From: Sistotremastrum niveocremeum HHB9708
Taxonomy: Eukaryota > Basidiomycota > Agaricomycetes > Sistotremastrales > Sistotremastraceae
Assembly: GCA_001630475.1 (NCBI GenBank)
Contig: KV419400.1
Span: 930,940 to 994,939, forward strand
DNA: 64,000 nt
Reading direction: 5' to 3'
The notes beneath the pieces were generated by a model. The model was not told the DNA's origin, ran no database searches, and was given only the letters and a program-made list of their open reading frames with translations. Shown here piece after piece: positions 35,593 through 37,157 of this stretch. Position 1 is the first letter of the stretch. Each line of letters begins with the position of its first letter. Both the position numbers and the translations under genes were made by a program.

Positions 35593-35723
35593 CCCAAGTC
35601 TCTGACCCTTGTTCCGGTTGTCTTTTTGTTGTTCGATCGCTCACCTGTCTCGTGTAGCTCTTCGTGGACGCGTCGTGTTGTTTTAGGTGGGGTTTCTAGA
35701 GTCGTGAGTACCTTTCCTGTCCA

Positions 35724-35810
35724 GCAGAATGATCGATCCATCTAGAAGTCAAGCCCTGACGCATCTTAAGGATGTTCGTTGATGAGCTATACCATGCTAA
35801 TACTGACTGC
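35724..35810 (+). ncRNA. Box C/D snoRNA, copy 1, in leader intron 35704-35855
   Basis: This candidate 2'-O-methylation guide RNA lies inside a 152-nt intron (GTGAGT...GAACAG). In order: terminal stem GCAG (35724-35727) pairing with CTGC (35807-35810); C box ATGATCG (35729-35735); D' box CTGA (35756-35759); hairpin CATC-TTAAG-GATG; C' box TTGATGA (35779-35785); D box CTGA (35803-35806). The element before box D (TACCATGCTAATA) is complementary over 11 nt to TATTAGCATGG of fungal 18S rRNA and places the fifth-base rule on the A before GCATGG. The D' element (TAGAAGTCAAGC) could pair over about 8 nt with GCUUGACU in the peptidyl-transferase region of 25S rRNA. The C box is degenerate at two positions. 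Copy 2 in the next intron strongly supports the call. Confidence 0.8.
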
Positions 35811-35917
35811 TTTCTATTGCCTTCTTCGATCATCCATCTAATATTCCCTGAACAGCTTTGATTGTCATTGTTCTGCACACGGCAAATCTATTACTGTGAG
35901 TAGTGTTCCTTTTGTTC

Positions 35918-35997
35918 TCTCGGGATGCAATTATCTAGAAGTCAAGCACTGATCGTCTTAAGGACGTTGATGAGTTTCCATGCTAATTCTGAATCAT
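35918..35997 (+). ncRNA. Box C/D snoRNA, copy 2, in leader intron 35896-36043
   Basis: This is a diverged paralogue of copy 1 in the next intron (148 nt, GTGAGT...TTCTCAG). C box GGGATGC (35922-35928), D' CTGA (35949-35952), hairpin CGTC-TTAAG-GACG, C' TTGATGA (35967-35973) and D CTGA (35989-35992) keep the order and spacing of copy 1. The D guide TTTCCATGCTAATT pairs over 12 nt with ATTAGCATGGAA of 18S rRNA, better than copy 1, and marks the same A. By memory this is the site guided by yeast snR53 (SSU A796). The D' guide TAGAAGTCAAGCA is shared with copy 1. No clear terminal stem is seen, so the ends are approximate. Confidence 0.78.
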
Positions 35998-36120
35998 CTT
36001 TATATTTGAACCTTTGAACTGGTACTCATCATCATCTTCTCAGATTGAAGCATGTGAACTAGCAAATGTGAGTATCTTTGTGTTCAACCTGCATATTGGG
36101 ATTATATTCTACTTGGATGA

Positions 36121-36146
36121 GGCATGGCCCTTATAAAGGCCATGCC
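36121..36146 (+). repeat. Perfect hairpin in the third leader intron
   Basis: GGCATGGCC (36121-36129) and GGCCATGCC (36138-36146) form a 9-bp perfect stem with an 8-nt loop. The stem is preceded by GATGA and followed by CTGA. It sits in an intron 36068-36236 (donor GTGAGT, branch TACTGAC, acceptor TTTTAG). It does not make a normal-sized box C/D RNA, and its role is unknown. Confidence 0.6.
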
Positions 36147-36371
36147 TGAGATATCTCAAAAATTTCAATGTCTTCAACCGAATGATTCTTTCTGTATACA
36201 ATGTGATCAGTCCACATACTGACGCCGCCGTTTTAGTCATTTCGCGCTTTCAATTTCTCGAGTTGAGTGATGCAGTTTCTGTAATTTAGGTTAGGCGCCG
36301 TGGTCGTGATAACCGCCTTTACTTTGTACATAGCTGTAAACAATATTAATTCCATTCTATCTCATCTGATC

Positions 36372-37157
36372 ATGGTTGTGAGTATCCAGCTACTTTGTCT
36401 GCCTCGGGCCTCATGAAGCTGAACAGCGCCTTCAACTGTCTATTCGTGCTGAGCTTGAGAATGTGACTGATCTAACGCCGGCCGATCCTTTGGAGTACGA
36501 ATGGACCTTTCAAGTGAAGTGTAACAGCTGCAACGAGGTTCATCCAAAGATGGTGTCTATGAATCGCAAAGCTAGTCTGGTCGAACTGGAGTGACCCTGC
36601 ATATCTGATGACCGATGCAGGAGGAAAGAGAGCTCGCCAATGGCAAGGGCAATACCGCAAATTTCGTGTGGAAGTGAGTGCTGGCATCTAAAGTATAGTC
36701 TCTGAAAGTGATTGACGTCTACGAATAGATGTGGATCATGCAAACGAGAATCATCTGCGAAATTTGAACCGCTTCCCAAGGGTCCTAAAAACAAAGATCT
36801 CCCTCTCACTTACACTGCCGAAGCTAGCGAAGAGCAGAAATTTGCGCCTCTCGCCATTCTCGATTGCAGGGGGCTTGAATTTACTGGTTTCAACCCAACG
36901 GTTTCTGATTCACCTGGATGAATAATTCCGGACTTATGCATTTCTCTCAGGGCTTCTGGCAATGCGCGGGTACAGAATCTGGCACGGTCTTCTCGGATAT
37001 CGATCTTGGGGAGGGCGAATGGACAGAATACGATGAGAAGGTGAACGCTACTCTACTATGTGCTGTTCATCAGGGTTGACATATATCCAACGATAATCAG
37101 GCCAAACAGCCTGTCGGAATCATGAATATAGAGAGTAAATGGGCAAGGGCCCCATAG
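36372..37157 (+). CDS. DUF866/UPF0587 CXXC zinc-binding protein (C1orf123/CZIB-like); snoRNA host
   Basis: This small cytosolic zinc-binding protein belongs to a widespread family of unclear function. The first coding exon is only ATG GTT (36372-36377). A 49-nt intron then leads to RLQLSIRAELENVTDLTPAD and VKCNSCNEVHPKMVSMNRK. Later exons give GNTANFVWKCGSCKRESSAK, so the two zinc CxxC pairs are CNSC and CGSC. Then come PLAILDCRGLEFTGFNPT, GFWQCAGTESGT and GEWTEYDEKAKQPVGIMNIE, with a stop at 37157. The junction after SMNRK is ambiguous (GCTAGT or a GTCGAA donor 12 nt later). Upstream, short non-coding exons at 35856-35895 and 36044-36067 appear to be its leader, and their introns hold two snoRNAs. 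It is convergent with the IQ-motif gene. Confidence 0.87.

Follow-up and report, generated by a model that had tools for sequence, protein, structure and literature searches.

Candidate double-guide box C/D snoRNAs in two adjacent presumed leader introns of Sistotremastrum niveocremeum

Two consecutive introns on the forward strand of the window, as we call the whole analysed stretch of 64,000 nucleotides from Sistotremastrum niveocremeum HHB9708, quite probably harbor two double-guide box C/D snoRNA genes, each with an snR66-like D' guide and an snR53-like D guide. This prediction retains the core of an earlier note that had described an intronic C/D pair aimed at the snR53 site, and departs from it with respect to the quality of the C boxes and the age of the duplication. 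According to the proposed mechanism, each leader intron would encode one double-guide snoRNA that is expressed, freed by splicing of the leader with subsequent debranching and trimming of the intron, and assembled into a snoRNP, the expected protein partners being fibrillarin, Nop56, Nop58 and Snu13. The D guide would direct 2'-O-methylation of 18S rRNA at the A that corresponds to yeast A796, the snR53 site, and could also pair with U6 at an A equated with human A53. The D' guide would most likely direct methylation of 25S rRNA at the counterpart of yeast U2417, the snR66 site, and the snoRNA cores would have stayed alike after their duplication.

Two presumed leader introns with a shared core

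Both introns run from GTGAGT to CAG, have the lengths of 152 and 148 nt reported in the earlier note, and are predicted to be spliced (Table 1). They are positioned upstream of the ATG of a gene for a DUF866/CXXC zinc-binding protein that matches Pfam PF05907 and whose spliced product is 100% identical over 173 amino acids to a DUF866 protein of S. niveocremeum HHB9708. Apparently both form part of the 5' leader of this gene, which we presume to be their host. Its five coding introns are 49–60 nt in length, so that the leader introns are longer by a factor of 2.5–3, in line with the roughly threefold difference from the usual intron that had been noticed before. The second coding intron (36571–36620, 50 nt) is of the GC-AG type (GCTAGT...CAG). 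A likely third leader intron (36068–36289, 222 nt) is single-copy in the genome, matched no Rfam family and was discarded as a C/D host, as it contains no convincing box set. It does contain a perfect-looking hairpin with 14-bp arms (36120–36147), nearly self-complementary in 27 of 28 nt, with a z value of -4.2 and no equally stable sequence among 200 shuffles.

Table 1. Features of the two introns and of the presumed host gene, in window positions.
Feature	Position	Strand	Basis
Host intron 1, GTGAGT...CAG, 152 nt	35704..35855	+	sequence; splicing predicted
Copy 1 terminal stem, 5' arm AGCAG	35723..35727	+	
Copy 1 box C ATGATCG, 5/7	35729..35735	+	
Copy 1 D' guide TAGAAGTCAAGC, 12 nt; likely 25S Um2417 equivalent	35743..35754	+	
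Copy 1 box D' CTGA	35756..35759	+	
Copy 1 D'-C' hairpin CATC/GATG	35761..35775	+	
Copy 1 box C' TTGATGA, 6/7	35779..35785	+	
Copy 1 D guide CCATGCTAAT, 10 nt; predicted for 18S Am796 equivalent and U6	35792..35801	+	
Copy 1 box D CTGA	35803..35806	+	
Copy 1 terminal stem, 3' arm CTGCT	35807..35811	+	
Host intron 2, GTGAGT...CAG, 148 nt	35896..36043	+	sequence; splicing predicted
Copy 2 box C GGGATGC, 5/7, GATG kept	35922..35928	+	
Copy 2 D' guide TAGAAGTCAAGC, 12 nt	35936..35947	+	
Copy 2 box D' CTGA	35949..35952	+	
Copy 2 D'-C' hairpin CGTC/GACG, one pair changed on both sides	35954..35966	+	
Copy 2 box C' TTGATGA, 6/7	35967..35973	+	
Copy 2 D guide TTCCATGCTAAT	35976..35987	+	
Copy 2 box D CTGA	35989..35992	+	
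DUF866/CXXC zinc-binding gene, six coding exons, presumed host	36372..37157	+	link to leader introns putative

In both copies the boxes occur in the order C, D', C', D at the positions described in the earlier note, with an exact CTGA at D' as well as at D. The description was too favorable, however, with respect to the terminal C boxes. Scored against RUGAUGA both are degenerate, with ATGATCG in copy 1 lacking the second G of UGAUGA and GGGATGC in copy 2 lacking its U, and the C' boxes are also one letter short of the consensus. Box C is located 25 nt from the 5' splice site in copy 1 and 26 nt in copy 2, and the distance from box D to the end of the intron is 49 and 51 nt, respectively. The terminal stem GCAG/CTGC assigned to copy 1 is present and extends to 5 bp (AGCAG/CTGCT); no terminal stem adjoins the boxes of copy 2. 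In folding calculations neither the cores nor the whole introns were more stable than shuffled sequences, and the D'-C' hairpin appeared in the best structure predicted for either whole intron but not in that of the shorter cores. Note that the boxes alone are no evidence for snoRNAs, since their order is found at chance level: the same order and spacing occurs twice on the plus strand of the window, at the two copies, and once on the minus strand, and 40 dinucleotide shuffles of the plus strand yielded a mean of 2.1 and a maximum of 8 such arrangements.

Complementarity to ribosomal and U6 RNA

A search of the 111-contig assembly with conserved 18S and 25S patterns did not retrieve the rDNA of the species itself; with up to one mismatch the 18S pattern was found at a single place, with a mismatch, and the 25S pattern at none. 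Three eukaryotic rRNA patterns had no match in viral contigs, and over the genome contigs such a pattern was found in one only, BQJP01000067.1, inside a bacterial metagenome-assembled genome (MAG). Although filed under a Thermodesulfobacteriota MAG, this contig comprises an entire eukaryotic rDNA unit (18S, 5.8S, 28S) and represents a contamination; it contains three group I intron matches and ends in a G-rich repeat of the TTGGGG type, and another sequence from the same MAG is not rRNA according to Rfam.

In box C/D snoRNAs the methylated base is set by its distance from box D or D', the fifth-nucleotide rule. In this register the D guides address the A immediately preceding GCAUGG, as the earlier note had proposed, in the Rfam SSU consensus, in the real eukaryotic 18S rRNA of BQJP01000067.1 and in the expected fungal 18S sequence. 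With AGCAUGGAAU, present in the former two, copy 1 forms 9 bp and copy 2 forms 11 bp. Pairing over 11 and 12 nt had been claimed; with the expected fungal sequence, the 12 nt would stand for copy 2 (ATTAGCATGGAA) but copy 1 would be limited to 10 contiguous pairs (ATTAGCATGG). We take the A in front of GCAUGG to be yeast Am796. This fits the tabulation of snoR53Y (RF01279) beside snR53 (PMC3511168), and the assignment of yeast 18S Am796 to snR53, which the earlier note gave, is found in published tables (PMC8307265, PMC5199042). In BQJP01000067.1 the target, TTTAGCATGG, differs from ATTAGCATGG in one position, and as a match of this kind is expected 0.60 times by chance, the value of the site lies in its Rfam alignment.

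The earlier note had considered 18S only and overlooked that the D guide also fits the U6 RNA of the species itself. Five U6 matches in the genome exceed the Rfam cut-off and share an identical stretch of 115 nt; one contig carries two of them at a distance of about 3.3 kb. The U6 genes contain AGATTAGCATGGCCCC, with which the D guide, keeping its register, forms 10 bp in copy 1 and 11 bp, including one G-U pair, in copy 2. The A addressed is presumably equivalent to human A53, and the site of Neurospora CD11 is numbered Am47 in its paper. At the 18S and U6 sites, 0 or 1 of 500 shuffled D guides paired as strongly. For copy 1 the energies are -16.6 kcal/mol with U6, a value that includes pairs beyond an internal loop, -14.2 kcal/mol with the Rfam 18S consensus and -15.3 kcal/mol with the expected fungal 18S; the corresponding values for copy 2 are -15.2, -16.1 and -17.0 kcal/mol. 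The differences are small, and it seems unlikely that the copies have divided their labor after duplication, with copy 1 acting on U6 and copy 2 on 18S. Were it so, this one pair of leader introns, with an snR66-like guide fused into both copies, would place marks on 18S, 25S and the spliceosome. Ranked over the rRNA of BQJP01000067.1, from a distant organism whose 18S site is one pair short, the 18S site does not appear in the list of copy 1's eight strongest duplexes and takes second place in that of copy 2. A yeast CLASH study describes snR53 as lacking stable, reproducible rRNA hybrids (PMC6171561). The dual fit of such a guide to 18S and U6 in fungi is already published for CD11 from Neurospora (PMC2780460).

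The D' guide, whose target had been left unnamed, is in register with the snR66 site of 25S rRNA. Here TAGAAGTCAAGC forms 8 bp with GCUUGACU, followed by a further 4 bp (CUAG) past a bulge of one nucleotide. The base addressed, fifth from box D', corresponds in the Rfam LSU consensus to the second U of GAGCUUGACU. A guide duplex is expected to comprise about 10 or more contiguous base pairs, and the run of 8 remains below the length of an snR66-type duplex. With the Rfam LSU consensus the interaction amounts to -17.4 kcal/mol, and none of 500 shuffled guides paired equally well there. When the entire rRNA of BQJP01000067.1 was considered, 22 of 60 shuffled D' guides reached -17.2 kcal/mol or better and 37 of 150 had an in-register Watson-Crick run of at least 8; within this contig the 25S site is the best for the D' guide of copy 1, and for copy 2 a place in 18S is slightly better. 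The case for this target derives from the fact that the site is known to be methylated, with coincidence estimated at about 1 in 100. Yeast 25S rRNA carries Psi2416, Um2417 (snR66) and Um2421 (snR78) (PMC8307265), and the spacing of positions 2416, 2417 and 2421, which fits U-U-G-A-C-U, suggests that the second U of GAGCUUGACU is yeast U2417. The D' guide is likely to work like that of snR66, on the equivalent of 25S Um2417. A second site for this guide, GCUUGACUUGG near the 5' end of the 18S rRNA in BQJP01000067.1 (9–10 bp), was set aside, as the Rfam SSU consensus reads CUUcucUcc at this place.

Conservation and alternative readings

As stated in the earlier note, the D' and D guides are common to both copies, with the 12 nt of TAGAAGTCAAGC and the 10 nt of CCATGCTAAT identical in every letter. 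The cores match in 56 of 68 aligned columns, and the blocks kept between them are two guide-plus-box units and the intervening hairpin, in which CATC...GATG in copy 1 is replaced by CGTC...GACG in copy 2, a compensatory exchange of A-U for G-C. Outside the cores, the 5' intron flanks (18 of 36 columns; a fraction of 0.278 of 500 shuffles as good) and the upstream exons (0.728) are at background, and the 3' flanks (0.048) and downstream exons (0.012) are slightly above it. The two copies probably stem from a duplication, but with flanks near background and identical guides this event was probably not recent, contrary to what had been suggested, although faint traces outside the cores may remain.

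In the 34.7-Mb assembly the 14 fixed letters of CCATGCTAAT-N-CTGA occur exactly only at the two copies. A further 16 places have one mismatch, making 18 in all versus 5 for a reversed-pattern control; six of the 16 were read by eye and none was convincing, although one with TTGA in place of CTGA could conceivably be another copy. The pattern GAGTCAAGCN{0,2}CTGA, which an snR66 gene with a degenerate D' box would escape, was found at four places in the genome (control: two), none of them with one-base spacing. Six places were obtained for AGTCAAGCNCTGA (control: four), two of which are the copies themselves, and the remaining four were unconvincing by eye. In viral contigs the D-guide pattern occurred once, in a place that appears coding-like by eye and has no Rfam match, and the D'-guide pattern 30 times; plasmid sequences contained no pattern match.

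The earlier note had proposed C/D family models as a check, and here the window contains no match at or above the gathering score of any Rfam family. RF00377 (snoU6-53) scores 26.5 bits for copy 2 and 19.8 bits for copy 1 with a cut-off of 36, and RF01279 (snoR53Y) scores 23.2 bits for copy 1 with a cut-off of 43. The candidates are therefore described as working like an snR53-type guide and not filed in those families. The Rfam search as such works in the Sistotremastrum genome, since it finds U6 and snR52 above the cut-off, the latter (RF00335) with one match of 65.6 bits versus a cut-off of 47. This snR52/snoZ13-family snoRNA (minus strand, 931233–931347 of another contig) has a GTAAGT donor upstream, as judged by eye, and is apparently intronic.

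The degenerate C boxes raise the question whether both copies are active. Possibly, though we regard this as doubtful, only one of them works and the other is a decaying paralogue: copy 2 has neither an adjacent terminal stem nor the U of UGAUGA, copy 1 is missing the second G, and box mutations together with an unstable terminal stem are marks of a snoRNA pseudogene according to the SnoBIRD authors (PMC12309372). With two C-box mutations and an intact D box, however, neither copy would come under the first filter described for SnoBIRD (PMC12309372), the two copies have the same guides and D boxes, and the hairpin has changed in a compensatory manner. Moreover, the 65.6-bit snR52-type snoRNA of the same genome, with CTGATGC read by eye as its box C, likewise matches only 5 of 7 positions, and a guide snoRNA for S. 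pombe U6 A64 is also described with a C box one letter off the consensus (PMC10484740).

That box order is at chance level and no Rfam match exceeds its cut-off would also agree with the absence of any snoRNA, the introns sharing repeated splicing or structural elements in which boxes and guides arose by chance. We consider this quite improbable, as the kept blocks are exactly two guide-plus-box units with a hairpin between them, and the register of both guides agrees with methylation sites published for fungi. Very improbable, finally, is an arrangement in which TTGATGA is the true box C, CCATGCTAAT occupies the D' position of its counterparts in CD11 and the Rfam families, and box D follows further downstream: Rfam does align both copies in this manner, below the cut-off, and the 18S guide of Neurospora CD11 is listed at D' (PMC2780460), but intron 2 contains no later CTGA, the only one of intron 1 stops 4 nt short of the end of that intron, and the kept upstream block TAGAAGTCAAGC-N-CTGA and the hairpin would be left unexplained.

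Comparison with known systems

Few basidiomycete snoRNAs have been catalogued. If both introns indeed encode double-guide snoRNAs, the two genes would represent a combination of guides, snR66-like and snR53/U6-like, as well as a paralogue pair for testing how one guide is shared between ribosomal and spliceosomal RNA. The kind of RNA is known, and intronic snoRNAs, guides with multiple targets and recombination of guide halves have been described for fungi (PMC2780460). We have not met in the literature searched an RNA that combines an snR66-like D' guide with a guide of the snR53/U6 type at D instead of D'; we recognised no report of the intron pair or of this guide combination, which in itself does not prove their absence. 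An Rfam-based survey of Pleurotus ostreatus lists seven snoRNAs and mentions three of the snR52 class (PMC5040776), so that multi-copy snoRNAs seem ordinary in such fungi.

The closest parallel for the D guide is CD11 from Neurospora crassa, listed together with snR53 from S. pombe and yeast and with snoR53Y from Arabidopsis (PMC2780460). CD11 is likewise an intronic fungal C/D snoRNA in which one element fits both 18S (Am793) and U6 (Am47), but in CD11 this element occupies D' and the D guide is directed to 26S-Am356, whereas in Sistotremastrum it is at D and is accompanied by the snR66-like D' guide (PMC2780460). The Rfam families RF00377 and RF01279 contain the same block, UGAUGA...CCAUGCUAAU-N-CUGA, but in the first half of the RNA; in the Sistotremastrum copies, which remain below the gathering score, it is in the second half. 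For the D' guide, Neurospora CD2 and yeast snR66 (25S Um2417, 26S-Um2379) have the same likely target nucleotide, but CD2 is a separate snoRNA with a 13/0 match, in contrast to the 8 bp, bulge and 4 bp that are joined here to an snR53-like guide. The joining of guides that are separate in yeast within one RNA has its counterpart in Neurospora CD5, which combines those of snR72 and snR78, although with other guides and other targets (PMC2780460).
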